Positions 1 through 8,577 of a stretch of DNA of 39,267 bases are shown here, piece by piece. Source of the DNA: Bacteroidota bacterium. Lineage in GTDB: Bacteria; Bacteroidota; Bacteroidia; UBA7662; JAIXUI01. The DNA lies in the NCBI GenBank assembly GCA_027484125.1, contig JAIXUI010000131.1, forward strand, positions 1 through 39,267, in the 5' to 3' direction. A program made the position numbers and the translations under genes. Position 1 is the stretch's first letter; the number at the start of each line of letters is the position of its first letter. The notes under the pieces are model-generated. The model saw only the letters and a program-made list of their open reading frames with translations. It was not told the DNA's origin and ran no database searches.

Positions 1-116
1 CAGCTTCCTTCAGATTCCGCTTCACAACGGACACCCTTGCTCTTGGCTAACGGTAAGTACTGCAACTCCCGCTCGGGACTTCCACCCTAGAGCTGATACA
101 CATGCCTGACGCACAC
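1..116 (-). mobile_element. Group IIC-like intron, 5' end of domain I (partial, runs off left edge)
   Basis: On the minus strand the sequence from 116 toward 1 begins GTGTGC, matching the GUGYG 5' boundary of group II introns. It then carries blocks I recognise from the start of bacterial group IIC domain I, as in the Oceanobacillus iheyensis intron: GGGTGGAAGTCCC (75-87), CAAGGGTGTCCG (28-39) and GGAATCTGAAGGAAGC (3-18), in the right order and roughly the right spacing. The catalytic domains and any intron-encoded reverse transcriptase would lie beyond position 1 and cannot be seen. The intron begins right after the terminator T-tract of the neighbouring minus-strand gene and has the same orientation, which is the known target preference of group IIC introns. 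Assignment to class C rests on remembered sequence similarity plus this site. Confidence 0.82.
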
Positions 117-148
117 AAATAAAAAAGGCCGCAATAGCGGCCTTTTTT
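117..148 (-). terminator. Intrinsic terminator of the secreted-protein gene; intron insertion site
   Basis: A near-perfect inverted repeat (121-132 with 137-148, loop AATA) gives a GGCCGC/GCGGCC stem flanked by A and T runs. On the minus strand the stop codon TAA (149-147) of the type IX secreted protein runs into the 5' arm, and the hairpin is followed by TTTTTTATTT and then, with no gap, the GTGTGC intron start. The A/T symmetry means it could work in both directions. Confidence 0.88.
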
Positions 149-3100
149 ATTTGTTGAGATAAACATATTGCTTGATGTTATGAATATTTCCATCAAAACC
201 CTCCGCATTCAAAATCACAACATATAATCCGGGTTCTACCCAATTTTCAGCCCATTTACCATTCCATGATACTTTTCTTCCAGATTCATTAAATATCAAT
301 TGCCCCCAACGATTCCAAACTTGCATCGTTATGTTCTTTATTCCTAAGCCAATTGGTCTCAATACTTCATTTAAGTTATTATTGTTAGGAGTAAAGGCCG
401 TTGGAAGCCATATTTTACTATTTATCGTATCGATGCACGTATTTGAACGTCTCCAAATTCCATTTCTATTCTCTGTTAAAAAGATTTTTACATAACCTAA
501 AGATGTCAATCCGGAATCAATTGAATACTGAATAGAAACATCCTCCTGATCATTAAGTGGAATATTCTTAGCAGTAGAATCAAGAGAATTCCAAATGTTA
601 TTAATCCAATCTTCCCTATGGCGGTAAACGCCAATAAGATTCTCAGTTCCTGAACTGGTTAATTGAATATTAAATGATTGATTAGAGTCTTTCCGTGTAT
701 TTAATGCTAAGCTTTTTATCGGATTAATAGAAAATGCCGCATTATTGCAAGAGTCGAATGCCGTGATTTTATACCAACGGGAGGTTTTAACATCAGAATT
801 TAAATCTACCCAGGTTGAATCTTTTTCCTGAATAAATTTTCTGTCTGCAATAATCCATTGTGTGCTATCTGTGCTCTTTGAAACTTCAATCCAAGAAGTG
901 CCCTCCAGTCTATTCCAAAATAATTTTACTCTCTCTTTAGCTTCTATTGAATCTACACTTGCTGCCGACATGACCAATCGAGGCGTATTATTGAAACCAG
1001 TGATACTCACAAAAATGGAAGTATCGAATTGACAAGTTGAGTTCTTTAAACTTATTTTCAACGAGTCAGTTTCAAAAAAAGTAAAGTCCCTTCTTGCATA
1101 GTTATTAAAAATCTGCTCTTGTAATCTCCATGATTTGTTAGTCCAGATAATAGAATCTGCGTCCTGAGTACTTGCTAAAAACTGACTTCTCAAAGGAGAA
1201 CATCCCTCAGTCGGAAATAAAGTTGCTCTTAGTTGAGGTGTTTCGTTGATATTCAAGTTTGCTACTTCAGACTCTCCTCTACAACCTTCCAAAGTTGTCC
1301 ACCTTATGCTTAATTTTCCTTGAATACTAGATGAAAACAGGTAACTCCAATTAAAAGGAAGTAGGTTGGTATCAATAGAAGGGATTAAATTCCAGTTTCC
1401 ATTAGGTAGTCTGAAATAAAGTGTATCGATTTCTCTAGGTTTCAAAAAACCCAATAATTGGAATGGGGTGCAACCATTGACATTTGGGAAGGAAAATTGC
1501 AAACTAGGCAAAGCTCTGATTTGATAAGGCAATTCCAATTCTATCAAAGAGTCACATCTTTGATTAAAAATTCTAATTGTGATTCTTAAAGTATCCGGCA
1601 AAAGACTTGTTAGCCGAAATTTCCATATGTTGAAAGCAGAAGGAAAGACTTTGATACCATTATTGATTACTTCAATTGAATCTGTTGCCTGAATTTGTAA
1701 AGTTTTAATCAAACTTCCACAAAGTACAGAATCATTAATGGTATAGTTAAAACTTTGAATATCAATTACTCTAATTTCTTTTTTTAAGGAATCTATGCAG
1801 CCTTCTTTACTTTTCGAAACAATTGAAATACTCCAAATTCCAGGAGTTGAAAATGCTCGAGAAACACTATTAGAAGATAAAAGTGTATAATTCCATTGAG
1901 GAGATGTAGTATGAAAGAATGAAATCCAAGTTGAGTCTGCATGCTGACTTTGGTTAGTAACCACAATGGGCTTTCGAATACAAGTTAACGTATCACTTAG
2001 GATAAAATCAGCTATAGTTCGTGGCCTAATCTGAATGATATTGTTTTCAGAGATAGAGTCCATACAGCCTTTTGCTTTCATAAAAATTTTATACCCAAAT
2101 AGGCTATTGTTGGTATAAACCCGAGAACTCTGCCATTGTAACGTATCTGTCCAAATTCCTGAAAAATAATTATTCGGTGACATTAACCAGTCTATTTTAA
2201 CCGAATCTGTATCCAAAAATGTCCCTCTTAATATCACTTCTCGCCTTCTACAACTATTCACTGTATCTGCTATCAATAAGCCCGGTCGGCTTCTATTCTT
2301 CGCTATTATATGGATGGTATCAGTGGTTATACAGCCCGTTGTACCATAAACTTGTTGGACGATATATTGAGTTTGAGGTTGTGCAATGTTTACAATACTA
2401 GAGTTAAGCTTGTTGGTGTTTAGTAAAAATCGAACTGAGTCAATTGCCCCTTGGCTCAAATCAAAGTATTGTAAACTAAAAGGAACACACGCTTGAATTG
2501 ATTTGCTTAGAAAACCATTCCTTGATATACTATCAATCGGAAAGTTTACAGTAAATCCAGGCCTCGGTGCAGGAGTGATATTGATAACTTGAGGTCTGAG
2601 CATGGTATCTGCACATTGTCCATTTGATGCAATCAACCTTACATCAAATCTTCCAGATTGTTGAAAAGGATGATATACAAAACCTCCACTTGGCTGATTA
2701 AGTATTAAAGGAGGGGTTCCGTCACCAAAATCCCACCTTAAAAAGGAACCAGGCGCATTAAACACATTGGTACTACTATCCCTTAACCTTACATAAACAA
2801 AACCACAGGAAGAAGTATCGTCTAGGGCGAATAAGGCCTTTGGTGTTGGATATAAACAAATAACTTTCGCAGCCGATGTATCAGAACAACCAAAAGTATT
2901 AAAACGTACTAATCTCAGAGTATCACAACCAACGTGATTGTATATCAAGGTATCTCTCCATGGATTGTCGGCCATGGTTCGTGTTCCAAATCTACTAGAA
3001 AGTAAAAATGCAAAATCTGAACCTTGTGCAGTAATTGCCAACTTATATGGTAAACATCCGATAGAGTCAGGAATAAAAAGTTGAGCGTTAGGTTGTGTTT

Positions 3101-4625
3101 TGAAATGAACCGAGAAAAAGGAGGTATCTGTACAGCCGTTGAAAGATGAACGAACTTCTACAACTCCATTACCTGTTGAAGGAAATGTGTACTGGTAGCT
3201 ACCATTTCCATTAGGCAAAACAACTGAACTGTTAATGAGTATTTGAAATTGAAGGTTAAACAGAGGATTTGAAAGCATCCTAATGGTTGTAACTGTACCT
3301 CTACAAACTGTATCGGCAGAAAAAGCATACATAGCTTTAATTCCGGGACTCTGTATGAATGAAGGTGAAAAAATGGGAGTATTCGTAGCATTGCTTGAAG
3401 TACCATTCGTAAAACCAATACTTGATCCGGAAGATTGTCCGGCAGCACCACTTGATAAGAAGGAAGATACTTGGCCGGCACCTTGTATTCCATTTTTCAA
3501 ATACAAAATACCAGGGCCACCACCACCACCACCACCACCCCCTGGGTGAGAGCCATTGGTTGCAAAACCACCTCTTCCTCCTAATGCACTTACTGCAACT
3601 TGTCCAATAACTCGCTGTACATCTAAAAATACGGCACCGCCGCCACCACCACCGCCACCTGCATCATCAGGTGCATTTTGCCCGGGATTTCCGTCAACTA
3701 AAATACGCTGAAAGTTGCCGACAAGAGTATCTGCTATAATTATAACTATTCCGCCACCAGAACCACCTCTGCCCAAGGCTTGTTCATTAGTTTGACCACC
3801 GCCTCCACCACCTCCCATAAAAATGGTGTAACTGAAGTTATTCAATCGAAAACCCCCTCTGCCTCCTATTGCTGCCCATTGAACAGAGGTGGGATTGCCA
3901 CCACCAAATCCTCCTCGATTGTTTAAGTTAGATCCACCTCCTCCTCCGGCATTATGTGCATTTCCTCCTCCTCCGCCGTTGCCTTGTGGGCCCCATCCTT
4001 GTATTCTGCCTATTCCTAATTGTGCAATACCTTCCCCTTTTTCACCATTGTAGGAAGTAGAAGGATAAAAAGAATTCGACAATGGAAAACTTGTTGAATT
4101 TACCACCGATTGATTCCCACCCCGAAACCCTTTTCCGGTCATAGAAATAGTATCATTCAAGGTGACTTTCTGAGCTTTTATCGCTAGAACCCCGCCCGTT
4201 CTTCCATTCCAACTGTTTCCGGTGAGTACGTTAGCGATTTCAACATTTCCGTATTCAGGAACCTTAACTAATTGAACTAAGCCTTCTGCCTGGTAGGTAT
4301 TAAGTAAGGTTTTGTCAAAATAAACGGTGTTGTTAGTAATCTGAGTGATTCTTGCAAGTTCGCATTTACCAGCAGATTGATAATTTAGTATTCTACCAAA
4401 TGTTGAATCATTTGAGGTACTATCTATCAAAGCACCTTTAGCTTGATAAATCAGCACTAAATCACCAACAACTAACCCATTGGCATTACTTACTACCGCT
4501 AACTTTAAACAAGCATCAATTACATTAACTTGATAGTAGCTATTTACAACTCCTGATATACTATTTTGACCTTGCGTCTTAAATAAAGAAATAAACAATA
4601 TGAATAATAAATATAGTTTTTTCAT
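147..4625 (-). CDS. Large secreted glycine-rich protein with type IX secretion (type B) C-terminal domain
   Basis: A 1,492-residue protein, probably exported and then secreted to the cell surface by the type IX system. I chose the ATG at 4625: it begins MKKLYLLFILFISLF, a clear signal peptide, and sits 5 nt after the upstream stop, whereas the longer form needs a TTG start inside the upstream gene. Residues about 160-400 are very glycine-rich, with many GGGGG runs. A PKD-like repeat (WDFGDGTPP, about residue 630) is followed by a long series of degenerate Ser/Thr-rich, Cys-containing beta repeats. About residues 1240-1330 look like a fibronectin-type fold. The last ~85 residues (from WLPTAFTPNNN, with VWNRWGQLIF and a GLYVV-type strand) match the gliding-motility-associated C-terminal domain. 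It is the last gene of an operon with two methyltransferases. An adhesin or surface-matrix role is inferred; no enzymatic domain was seen. Confidence 0.85.
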   Translation of the reverse strand: MKKLYLLFILFISLFKTQGQNSISGVVNSYYQVNVIDACLKLAVVSNANGLVVGDLVLIYQAKGALIDSTSNDSTFGRILNYQSAGKCELARITQITNNTVYFDKTLLNTYQAEGLVQLVKVPEYGNVEIANVLTGNSWNGRTGGVLAIKAQKVTLNDTISMTGKGFRGGNQSVVNSTSFPLSNSFYPSTSYNGEKGEGIAQLGIGRIQGWGPQGNGGGGGNAHNAGGGGGSNLNNRGGFGGGNPTSVQWAAIGGRGGFRLNNFSYTIFMGGGGGGGQTNEQALGRGGSGGGIVIIIADTLVGNFQRILVDGNPGQNAPDDAGGGGGGGGAVFLDVQRVIGQVAVSALGGRGGFATNGSHPGGGGGGGGGPGILYLKNGIQGAGQVSSFLSSGAAGQSSGSSIGFTNGTSSNATNTPIFSPSFIQSPGIKAMYAFSADTVCRGTVTTIRMLSNPLFNLQFQILINSSVVLPNGNGSYQYTFPSTGNGVVEVRSSFNGCTDTSFFSVHFKTQPNAQLFIPDSIGCLPYKLAITAQGSDFAFLLSSRFGTRTMADNPWRDTLIYNHVGCDTLRLVRFNTFGCSDTSAAKVICLYPTPKALFALDDTSSCGFVYVRLRDSSTNVFNAPGSFLRWDFGDGTPPLILNQPSGGFVYHPFQQSGRFDVRLIASNGQCADTMLRPQVINITPAPRPGFTVNFPIDSISRNGFLSKSIQACVPFSLQYFDLSQGAIDSVRFLLNTNKLNSSIVNIAQPQTQYIVQQVYGTTGCITTDTIHIIAKNRSRPGLLIADTVNSCRRREVILRGTFLDTDSVKIDWLMSPNNYFSGIWTDTLQWQSSRVYTNNSLFGYKIFMKAKGCMDSISENNIIQIRPRTIADFILSDTLTCIRKPIVVTNQSQHADSTWISFFHTTSPQWNYTLLSSNSVSRAFSTPGIWSISIVSKSKEGCIDSLKKEIRVIDIQSFNYTINDSVLCGSLIKTLQIQATDSIEVINNGIKVFPSAFNIWKFRLTSLLPDTLRITIRIFNQRCDSLIELELPYQIRALPSLQFSFPNVNGCTPFQLLGFLKPREIDTLYFRLPNGNWNLIPSIDTNLLPFNWSYLFSSSIQGKLSIRWTTLEGCRGESEVANLNINETPQLRATLFPTEGCSPLRSQFLASTQDADSIIWTNKSWRLQEQIFNNYARRDFTFFETDSLKISLKNSTCQFDTSIFVSITGFNNTPRLVMSAASVDSIEAKERVKLFWNRLEGTSWIEVSKSTDSTQWIIADRKFIQEKDSTWVDLNSDVKTSRWYKITAFDSCNNAAFSINPIKSLALNTRKDSNQSFNIQLTSSGTENLIGVYRHREDWINNIWNSLDSTAKNIPLNDQEDVSIQYSIDSGLTSLGYVKIFLTENRNGIWRRSNTCIDTINSKIWLPTAFTPNNNNLNEVLRPIGLGIKNITMQVWNRWGQLIFNESGRKVSWNGKWAENWVEPGLYVVILNAEGFDGNIHNIKQYVYLNK
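3517..3540. repeat. In-frame CCA/TGG trinucleotide tract inside the polyglycine region
   Basis: Seven perfect CCA units (3517-3537), followed by a short C run, encode consecutive glycines (GGT codons) on the minus strand, at about residues 363-370 of the secreted protein. A similar but interrupted glycine-codon tract lies near 3633-3660. Gain or loss of a unit by slippage would keep the frame, so glycine-run length could vary between cells without breaking the gene. Confidence 0.8.
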
Positions 4626-4630
4626 TGAAT

Positions 4631-5302
4631 CTATTCTTTTTTGGCAATACAAACATAATTCATCGTATTCTTATCATCAAAGAACTTGTTGTCCAAAAAA
4701 CCGAAAATTTCGTTTACAATCCATCTGAATGGCTTTCTGTTGCTAATCCATTTCGGAAGTGTGTGTATGATAACTTGTCCTAATAATGCCCACTTTCCAC
4801 CATTGCTGATTACTTCTACATGAACAAAGCCATTGGTTTCTAACATATGTCTAAAACCATGCTTAGTGTAGCGGTAAAAATCGTAAGGTTCTTCATGTAA
4901 GTGCCAATACATCGGGCCTGTAATAATAAACGTTCCACCCTTTTTTAGTAACCTATTTGCCTCTTTTACAACTGAAAATGGATCAGGAACATGCTCAATT
5001 GTTTGAGTGCAAATAACGGTCTGAAAGGATGCGTCTTCCAATGGGATTTTTGCAGCGTCACAAACGATGTCAACTTTGCCTAAATCAGATTGAACTATAT
5101 CAGTCCCAATATAGCTTTCCACATAAGGAGCAAATAATCTTTCGTAGGGCTTATTTCCACAACCGATATCCAACAACCTACCATTGGCATGAGAAGCGGC
5201 TGCATTGGTTAATGCTTCTATCATGCTAGATAGCTCGAGATAATAGGCATCAGTTTTCTTAATTCGGTAACCTGATAACCGTTTTAATGCAGCTTCTCTC
5301 AT
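4631..5302 (-). CDS. Class I SAM-dependent methyltransferase (Methyltransf_11 type)
   Basis: A 223-residue protein that probably transfers a methyl group from S-adenosylmethionine to a small molecule or glycan. Motif I is LLDIGCGN (about residues 43-50), followed by the acidic motif II region GTDIVQSDLG, then DAAKIPLEDASFQTVICTQTIEHVPDP, typical of the Methyltransf_11 fold (motifs III and IV), and the LLKKGGTFIITGPMYWH strand. There is no signal peptide or membrane segment, so it is cytoplasmic. It starts 2 nt after the FkbM stop (TAA, AC, ATG), and the large secreted-protein gene starts 5 nt after its own stop, so all three are probably co-transcribed. The substrate cannot be read from the sequence. 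Methyltransferases of this kind occur in polysaccharide and LPS gene sets, so a surface-glycan substrate is an inference from context. Confidence 0.85.
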   Translation of the reverse strand: MREAALKRLSGYRIKKTDAYYLELSSMIEALTNAAASHANGRLLDIGCGNKPYERLFAPYVESYIGTDIVQSDLGKVDIVCDAAKIPLEDASFQTVICTQTIEHVPDPFSVVKEANRLLKKGGTFIITGPMYWHLHEEPYDFYRYTKHGFRHMLETNGFVHVEVISNGGKWALLGQVIIHTLPKWISNRKPFRWIVNEIFGFLDNKFFDDKNTMNYVCIAKKE

Positions 5303-6156: not shown

Positions 6157-8577
6157 CTACCAATTCAGCTTCATCTCACCATCTTTCAATGCAAAAATTG
6201 CATAGGGAAGCTCTTTTACAACGTTGCTTTGGTCGGGTTCGAAGTGCCAAGGGTCTAAATCAGAGATTGGCTCAATAAAACGGTAGTCCTCTTTCTTGAT
6301 TTCGAGGGTCTGTCCATCCAACTGTACATTCAAACTCTCATCTCCAAATCCGTGGAAATACAACTTCGCATGGCTAAACTTACTCTTGAAGGAGCCCTCT
6401 ACTTCGCTTAAGCTGAATGTACATGCTTCCCCGTCAAACTTTAAATGACGACGGTAGTAGTTGCCTGTTTCATACTCGTAAGTTTCCCCATCGTCTTCAA
6501 AATACAGAAAATCACCGGCTGCGCCGTTGTACACGTGCACTTCCATGGTGGGTTCCGGCTTCTCCTTGGTGTGATTGATTTTGCTCTGCATCAATACCAC
6601 GCCTCCGCCTCTTACAAATACAGGAAGTCGCTCTTTAGGTGTTGGTACAAAGTATTCATGGTCGCCATTGTAGTATTTGTCGGTGTATAAATCGTACCAG
6701 TCGCCTTCAGGTAAAAACACTTTGATGGTCTGACGGGTAGAAGCCACTGGAGCTACGAGAATATTGGGACCGAAGAGGTACTGGTTTTGGTAAGCGCCCG
6801 AATAAACACGCTTTTCATGTGGATACTCTATCGCTAAGCTGCGCTGAATCGGCATTCCTGACATGGCTGTTTCATAGAAGCAGGAATACAAATAAGGGAG
6901 CAATCGGTAACGCAGGTTGATGTAGTTCTTAGAGATTTCTTCTACTTCTTCACCAAATGCCCAAGGCTCAGCATCGCGGCTGTTGATCATAGAGTGGGCA
7001 CGATAGAAGGGAGAAAATGCGCCGATGGAAACCCAGCGTGCGAATAATTCATTCGACGCTTCTCCGGCAAATCCACCTACATCGTATCCACAAAATGGAA
7101 TTCCAGTTAAGCCCATGGCGGTCAACATGCGGATGCCGGCCATCATGTGCTCGTCGTTCGCGATGTTATCGCCCGTCCAAACCGCTGCATAGCGCTGAAT
7201 GCCCGAGAAACCGGCACGACTTAATACAAAAGGACGACGGCCATTCAACTGTTTACGCACCCCTTCAAAAGTGGAGCGTGCCATTTGCATACCATAAACG
7301 TTATTCGCCTTGCGGATGGTGGCCTTATGTCCTTCGTACTCAAACTCCACGATATCCGGAATGCGTTTTCCCCAGGTAGCGGGTTCGTTCATGTCGTTCC
7401 AATAGCCTTCAATGCCGTTGTCCACGTGGATTTTATAGCTTTCTCCCCACCAATCGCGGGTTTTCGGATTGGTAAAATCGGGGAAATGGCACCAGCCCGG
7501 CCAAACTTTAGCCGTGTAGTTAGTACCATCAGGGTACTTAGCGAATAAATCTCCGGCGAGTCCTTCGTCGTAATACTTATAGCCTTCTTCCACTTTAACT
7601 CCCGGGTCCACAATCAGAATCACGTGGAAGCCCATTTCTTTCAACTCACGCACCATCCCATCAGGATCAGGAAAGCGCTTATTATCCCAGGTAAACACCT
7701 TGTATTGATCCATGTAGTGGATGTCAAGGTAGATAACATCGGCAGGAATTTCGCGTTCCCGGAAGTTGCGTGCAATATTCATCACTTCCTTCTGCGGATA
7801 GTAACTGTAGCGGCACTGTTGGAAGCCTAAACTCCAAAGCGGGGGCAACTCGGGACGTCCGGTGATGTGGGTGTAATCCTCGATAATTTTACCAATTCCG
7901 GGCTGATGAATGAAGTAATAATCCATCTCACCATCAGGAGCTGTAAAAGAAGAGAAGCGATTGTTTGACGCTCCAAAGTTGAACACAGAGCGGTAAGTGT
8001 TATCGAAGAAAATACCATAACACAAGCCGCTGTGAATTCCCATGTAGAAAGGCGTAGAGAGATACAAAGGATCTTCGTCGTGCGCATAGGCGAAGGAATC
8101 GGAATTCCAGTGCTGATAGGCTTTTCCTGCTCTATCGAGGTTACCTGTTTTCTCCCCTAATCCAATGAAACGCTCACCGGGTTGCAATTTGCGGTAGGAA
8201 CCCACTTCATGGCCAATCCACATGATGCCCAGCTTTTCTTCCTCTTCGTTGATGACTGCGCCTTCTGGAGTCATGAAGATGAATCGCAAAGGAGCTTTTT
8301 CAATTTTAACAACGAGTTGGTTGGATGCAAGGATGAGTGCATGGGCTTCATCCTGTAGGGAGAAATCAACCTCTCCGGGAGTAGCCACTACTGCATAAGA
8401 GAAGGTCTGGTCGTCACCACCTTTTTTACGGGCTCTGATTCTTACACTTCCTTCGGTGTAAAAAACGACATCTACCAGTTCATCTTCGGTGTTGAGGGTA
8501 ACACCGGTTTTAGTTGTTTCAAAAGAACTCAAATGCCCGATTCGTTGGGGCAAGTGGTCCTGACGCTTCATTGTCAT
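6157..8577 (-). CDS. Glycoside hydrolase family 31 alpha-glucosidase
   Basis: An 806-residue GH31 enzyme that hydrolyses terminal alpha-linked glucosyl (possibly xylosyl) residues. The (beta/alpha)8 core shows the nucleophile motif GYWNDMNEP, with the catalytic Asp at about residue 395. A TGDN motif near residue 473 would carry the acid/base Asp, and a substrate-site segment HSMINSRDAEPW follows. The N-terminal GH31 beta-domain and the C-terminal beta-sandwich (SDWY-like GDWYDLYTD) are present and length is normal. I chose the ATG at 8577 (MTMKRQDHL); the longer reading frame needs a TTG at 8601, and an ATG at 8571 is also possible. There is no signal peptide, so cytoplasmic use of alpha-glucan or malto-oligosaccharide is likely. 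It stands alone between two terminators, with no SusCD or other carbohydrate genes nearby, so the exact substrate is open. Confidence 0.92.
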   Translation of the reverse strand: MTMKRQDHLPQRIGHLSSFETTKTGVTLNTEDELVDVVFYTEGSVRIRARKKGGDDQTFSYAVVATPGEVDFSLQDEAHALILASNQLVVKIEKAPLRFIFMTPEGAVINEEEEKLGIMWIGHEVGSYRKLQPGERFIGLGEKTGNLDRAGKAYQHWNSDSFAYAHDEDPLYLSTPFYMGIHSGLCYGIFFDNTYRSVFNFGASNNRFSSFTAPDGEMDYYFIHQPGIGKIIEDYTHITGRPELPPLWSLGFQQCRYSYYPQKEVMNIARNFREREIPADVIYLDIHYMDQYKVFTWDNKRFPDPDGMVRELKEMGFHVILIVDPGVKVEEGYKYYDEGLAGDLFAKYPDGTNYTAKVWPGWCHFPDFTNPKTRDWWGESYKIHVDNGIEGYWNDMNEPATWGKRIPDIVEFEYEGHKATIRKANNVYGMQMARSTFEGVRKQLNGRRPFVLSRAGFSGIQRYAAVWTGDNIANDEHMMAGIRMLTAMGLTGIPFCGYDVGGFAGEASNELFARWVSIGAFSPFYRAHSMINSRDAEPWAFGEEVEEISKNYINLRYRLLPYLYSCFYETAMSGMPIQRSLAIEYPHEKRVYSGAYQNQYLFGPNILVAPVASTRQTIKVFLPEGDWYDLYTDKYYNGDHEYFVPTPKERLPVFVRGGGVVLMQSKINHTKEKPEPTMEVHVYNGAAGDFLYFEDDGETYEYETGNYYRRHLKFDGEACTFSLSEVEGSFKSKFSHAKLYFHGFGDESLNVQLDGQTLEIKKEDYRFIEPISDLDPWHFEPDQSNVVKELPYAIFALKDGEMKLNW

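Follow-up and report, generated by a model that had tools for sequence, protein, structure and literature searches.

Bases 1 to 114 of the window, read on the minus strand, are the 5' end of a group IIC (bacterial class C) intron, a retroelement sitting behind a transcription terminator (probability about 0.95). By window we mean the whole stretch of 39,267 nucleotides of Bacteroidota DNA that was analysed, which is the complete contig C107 of genome G000 and whose base 1 is the contig end. The earlier note had already proposed this reading, and it is supported by a multicopy 5' end, by a copy joined from two other contigs (C156 and C8), and by hairpins upstream of the insertions. Of the copy in the window, 114 nt are visible, and what we describe of domains V/VI, the reverse transcriptase (RT), and the AY 3' end comes from other copies. 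The intron is ordinary for its class and the terminator rule was already established; a likely majority of copies without RT and a contrast between two target lineages add interest, although neither is proved. The relevant features of the window are:

1..114, minus strand: group IIC intron, first 114 nt; 5' splice site at 114, GTGCGTCAGGC; truncated by the contig end
115..118, minus strand: TTGT, the final four exon bases, putative IBS1, adjoining the splice site
118..151, minus strand: intrinsic-terminator hairpin; core GGCCGC-TATT-GCGGCC (142-127), with paired A/T tracts that extend the stem to 15 bp
147..4652, minus strand: upstream gene of 1501 aa, secreted-protein-like; ORF with NCBIfam matches below curated cut-offs

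Intron boundary and contig break

The 5' sequence common to seven contigs (C107, C64, C126, C156, C5, C51, and C7), at or near the ends of which it lies, begins with GTGCGTCAGGC, and the sequence preceding it differs among them. Therefore, the intron starts at base 114 (GTGCG), and the minus strand of the window ends with ...AACAAATAAAAAAGGCCGCTATTGCGGCCTTTTTTATTTGT/GTGCGTCAGGCATGTGTATCAGCTCTAGGGTGGAAGTCCCGAG... This comparison with six other copies shows the GT at 116-115 to be exonic, so that the start at GTGTGC (116) and the 116 nt of intron given in the earlier note have to be corrected to 114 and 114 nt. The hairpin, the T tract, and the IIC-like 5' block that it described are all present, and its suggestion of an assembly break at the left edge, within an intron present in several copies, agrees with the same 5' end recurring on seven contigs: the assembler could not tell the copies apart, and the contig therefore stops at base 1. 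In the first 108 bases of the intron, each of the other six contigs agrees with the reference, C156, at 107-108 positions, far more than chance would give. The 5' end is GTGCG in six copies and GTGTG in C5 (GTGTGTCAGGC), and the six 3' ends all terminate in CGAT and are followed by T at +1. These are the group IIC hallmarks, a GUGYG 5' end and an AY 3' end, of which the window itself carries the 5' one. The last exon bases are TTGT in the window and TTAT, CTTT, or TTTG in the other copies.

No Rfam family matched the window at gathering score, because the contig end truncates the domain I model at 31 positions. The RF02001 match (window 31..1, minus strand), truncated because the contig ends there, reaches 27.5 bits (E 6e-4 in a 300-nt search) against a gathering score of 32; matches to leader and sRNA families are also below gathering score and lie mostly over the terminator hairpin. 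This result would suit an unrelated repeat or small RNA with an accidental likeness to domain I. However, in C156 the same sequence extends to a complete RF02001 match and, by way of C8, to an RT and a domain V, and this C156/C8 copy refutes such a reading, which we consider virtually without chance.

A complete copy and its reverse transcriptase

The complete copy is the reverse-complemented C156 joined to C8 through an end-to-end overlap of 119 identical bases and, as a join of two contigs, might be a chimera of near-identical copies. The joined intron measures 1,945 nt, starts with GTGCG, and ends with CGAT (AU), after which comes T; it matches the class-C domain I model RF02001 with 145.4 bits (in C156) and RF01998 with 54.2 bits. 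Domain V (RF00029) was detected with 45 bits at C8, C27, C30, C81, and C89, and domains V/VI fold as stems in RNA folding. An ORF at 415-1866 of the joined intron codes for an RT of 483 aa, carried by one contig of the genome only (C8). This protein scores 395 bits against TIGR04416. Its best solved relative is the GsI-IIC RT (414 bits), and further solved bacterial group II RTs, IIC enzymes as well, match with 387, 306, and 305 bits; the scores against LtrA and the maturase 6me0_C are 117 and 114 bits. Pfam recovered RVT_1 and GIIM only, with no endonuclease domain found, and the nearest relatives in the same bacterial class are ~55-62% identical. Group II intron models, domain V, and a class C RT had been proposed as checks; the genome yielded a class-C domain I match (RF02001) and both of the others, the latter two in copies other than that of the window.

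The 3' exon of the RT-bearing copy opens with a hairpin and a T run (L021:1770-1806, in C8), and this T run reaches right up to the start codon of a gene for a TypA-like GTPase. The genome also contains a second, different group II intron, seen as two 3' ends at contig starts (L024:1-137 in C50 and L025:1-137 in C104; RF00029, 60.3 bits), for which the assembly contains no RT.

Insertion behind terminators

In established group IIC biology, the intron RNA and its RT/maturase reverse-splice into DNA immediately downstream of a terminator hairpin. The target is read through the hairpin, a 3-4 bp IBS1-EBS1 pairing, and a 1-nt IBS3-EBS3 contact, and the reverse-spliced RNA is then copied into DNA. 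We infer that the present intron splices and moves in this manner.

To quantify the association, the 48 exon bases preceding each intron were given a stem score, with 564 windows taken from the 5' flanks serving as background (95th percentile 17). The window's terminator scores 36, above all 564 background windows, and its 48 exon bases have a minimum free energy of -27.2 kcal/mol. The intron starts 12 nt past the GC core of this hairpin, whose 5' arm contains the stop codon of the 1501-aa gene (4652..147). The encoded protein resembles the AgmC N-terminal domain (187.9 bits, curated cut-off 275) and the T9SS type B sorting domain (30.6 bits, curated cut-off 35) of NCBIfam. A generic terminator scan of the window missed the hairpin before the intron, presumably because pairing continues through the A and T tracts, so that no T run is left unpaired.

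Among the intron's own 5' ends (seven copies and two remnants), eight of nine score between 29 and 36.5. The expectation that each copy would follow a hairpin holds strongly for six of the seven copies and for both decayed remnants, and weakly for C126, with a 7-bp stem and a score of 16 that is not above background (p 0.07). The remnants lie on a single contig:

G000:C167 (L023:3200-3300, L023:4190-4385, L078:600-1000): three decayed intron remnants

One of them, of ~190 nt, is a fusion of the first ~105 nt of the intron with its final ~75 nt and has no canonical domain V; the others are a 60-nt 5' piece and a 3' half near position 6570. Both 5' pieces show signs of decay, with GCGCC/GCGCA in place of GTGCG and 81-87% identity, and are still preceded by perfect hairpins. 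The flank of the 3' remnant near 6570 repeats sequence found beside the 60-nt remnant.

That IIC introns insert behind intrinsic terminators was reported by Robart, Seo and Zimmerly 2007, as cited in PMC8919778 and PMC7161350, and the rule has also been measured over many genomes (PMC8919778). Within a partial coverage of the literature, we found no work joining class C, Bacteroidetes, and terminators. With this multicopy element, a rule for which the best documentation comes from Firmicutes is confirmed in Bacteroidota, and our results show how such introns break assemblies at terminators.

Probable copies lacking the reverse transcriptase

Six 3' ends were compared, C25 being too short to classify. 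In three of them (C27, C81, and C89), agreement with C8 starts ~24 nt ahead of the RT stop codon and holds from there on; the sequence on the upstream side is different and contains a hairpin, GAGCTGGTG-TACTT-CACCAGCTC (one mismatch in C27), that has no close match in the RT-bearing intron; C30 begins later and shares the variants of C89. As three of the six diverge from the RT sequence shortly ahead of domain V and a fourth shares their variant, copies devoid of RT probably outnumber the single RT-bearing copy in this genome, judging by the sequences of these ends. By analogy with Thermosynechococcus elongatus (PMC2882425), the C8 protein may move them in trans.

The window copy could accordingly be either form, and we find it somewhat more probable that it is an RT-less derivative, with domain IV reduced to a short hairpin and with mobility supplied in trans by the only copy that encodes an RT. 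The divergent 3' ends and the presence of RT in one contig only point in this direction, and so does genome G004, of the same order, where an RT-bearing intron coexists with an RT-less copy, their RNA parts being 94% and 98% identical. There, the RT-less intron (L081, G004:C4:91000-94500) is inserted directly behind a terminator after a tRNA gene and the RT-bearing copy lies elsewhere; copies with domain V at 546-562 nt from the 5' end also occur in G092 and G356. On the other hand, no contig of our genome shows a complete RT-less copy, the middle being missing from the assembly, and identical RT-bearing copies would also collapse to one contig. Moreover, the ends of C27, C81, and C89 could belong to RT alleles with another C-terminus, as their frame stays open for a few codons. 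We regard these alleles as less likely: such a C-terminus is unlike that of the RT of G380, which the C8 protein does resemble, and C8 was therefore taken as the coding form.

Two proposed target lineages within the class

Of 395 genomes of the class, 33 contain an RF02001 match. The distance from the 5' splice site to the RF02001 match splits these introns into a short (83-100 nt) and a long set (103-169 nt), and the stem threshold was passed by 10 of 11 exons in the former and 2 of 27 in the latter (Fisher p 1.4e-6, a descriptive value, as the threshold of 18 and the 100-nt split were chosen after seeing the data). With one value per genome, the counts become 8/9 against 1/15 (p 1e-4, also descriptive, the single values of multi-copy genomes having been picked or averaged by hand). 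Most long-set exons finish with N-TGT, and in the seven cases for which both ends were read the base that follows is always T, a pattern reminiscent of the TTGT/T consensus described for IIC-attC introns (PMC7923331).

Introns of the long set (L089, L090, L091, L129, L132-L134, L145, and others) lie after T/C/G-TGT/T in repeats resembling attC stems. The complete genome G324 contains eight copies of long-set IIC introns, and in both copies of one of them (L089:962-1080 and L090:2795-2913) an RF01999 (group II D1-D4-2) match occurs just 3' of domain V, as if the domain I of a second intron came next.

The two sets also differ in a conserved motif, which reads GTAAAT in the short set, apart from GTATAT in G131b, and GTAGAT almost throughout the long set, where two poorly aligned introns are exceptions. 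We propose that this motif contains EBS1; IBS1 of IIC introns comprises 3-4 bp (PMC7923331) and, at this putative position, GUAA would pair with TTAT and, by wobble, with TTGT, and poorly with CTTT and TTTG. In the RT tree, which took in no reference IIC-attC RT, the two labelled groups part at one branch with support 100/99, and four plasmid reference RTs fall on the terminator side. The class may harbour two IIC lineages, one targeting terminators and the other attC-like sites, distinguished by the length of the 5' region, one motif base, and RT phylogeny.

The exon end TTGT in the window equals the IIC-attC consensus (PMC7923331), and IIC-attC introns are reported to use terminators as targets too, so that the window might hold an intron of that kind, aimed at integron attC sites and found at a terminator by chance. 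We judge this very improbable. The other copies end in TTAT, CTTT, or TTTG, six insertions are at terminators, and the 5' region length, the GTAAAT motif, and the 100/99 split of the RT tree place the intron outside the attC-like lineage. Neither insertion into attC stems nor membership of the attC lineage was found, the latter on a tree without a reference IIC-attC RT.

Our reading thus remains a terminator-targeting IIC intron. A broader scenario, to which we give slightly less than even odds, is that the IIC intron propagates in this genome chiefly in the form of small derivatives without RT, which retain the terminator-seeking RNA and are mobilized in trans by one RT-bearing copy, and that, class-wide, a change of target from terminators to attC-like sites is marked by two features, the one-base change from GTAAAT to GTAGAT in the putative EBS1 and a longer 5' region. 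A bacterial class in which two IIC lineages differ in their targets offers a natural contrast, in which the RNA basis of target choice can be tested by motif exchange.

Comparison with known introns

The intron resembles terminator-targeting group IIC introns, with the GsI-IIC RT as solved relative, in its hairpin, T-rich exon, GUGYG start, class C domain I, RT with maturase domain and without endonuclease, AY end, and multicopy state; it differs in its Bacteroidota host, its probable RT-less majority, and an RT close to its nearest same-class relatives only at the identity given above. With IIC-attC introns (PMC7923331) it shares the class, the window exon TTGT with an upstream hairpin, and the T at +1, but its targets are terminators and not attC stems. 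From the attC-like introns of the same bacterial class it departs in 5' length, motif, and RT clade. The TeI3/TeI4 introns of T. elongatus, to our knowledge, neither belong to class C nor target terminators. As is probable here, they comprise many RT-less copies beside a few that bear RT, which suggests mobility in trans in both cases, demonstrated by experiment for TeI3/TeI4 (PMC2882425) and proposed here by analogy.
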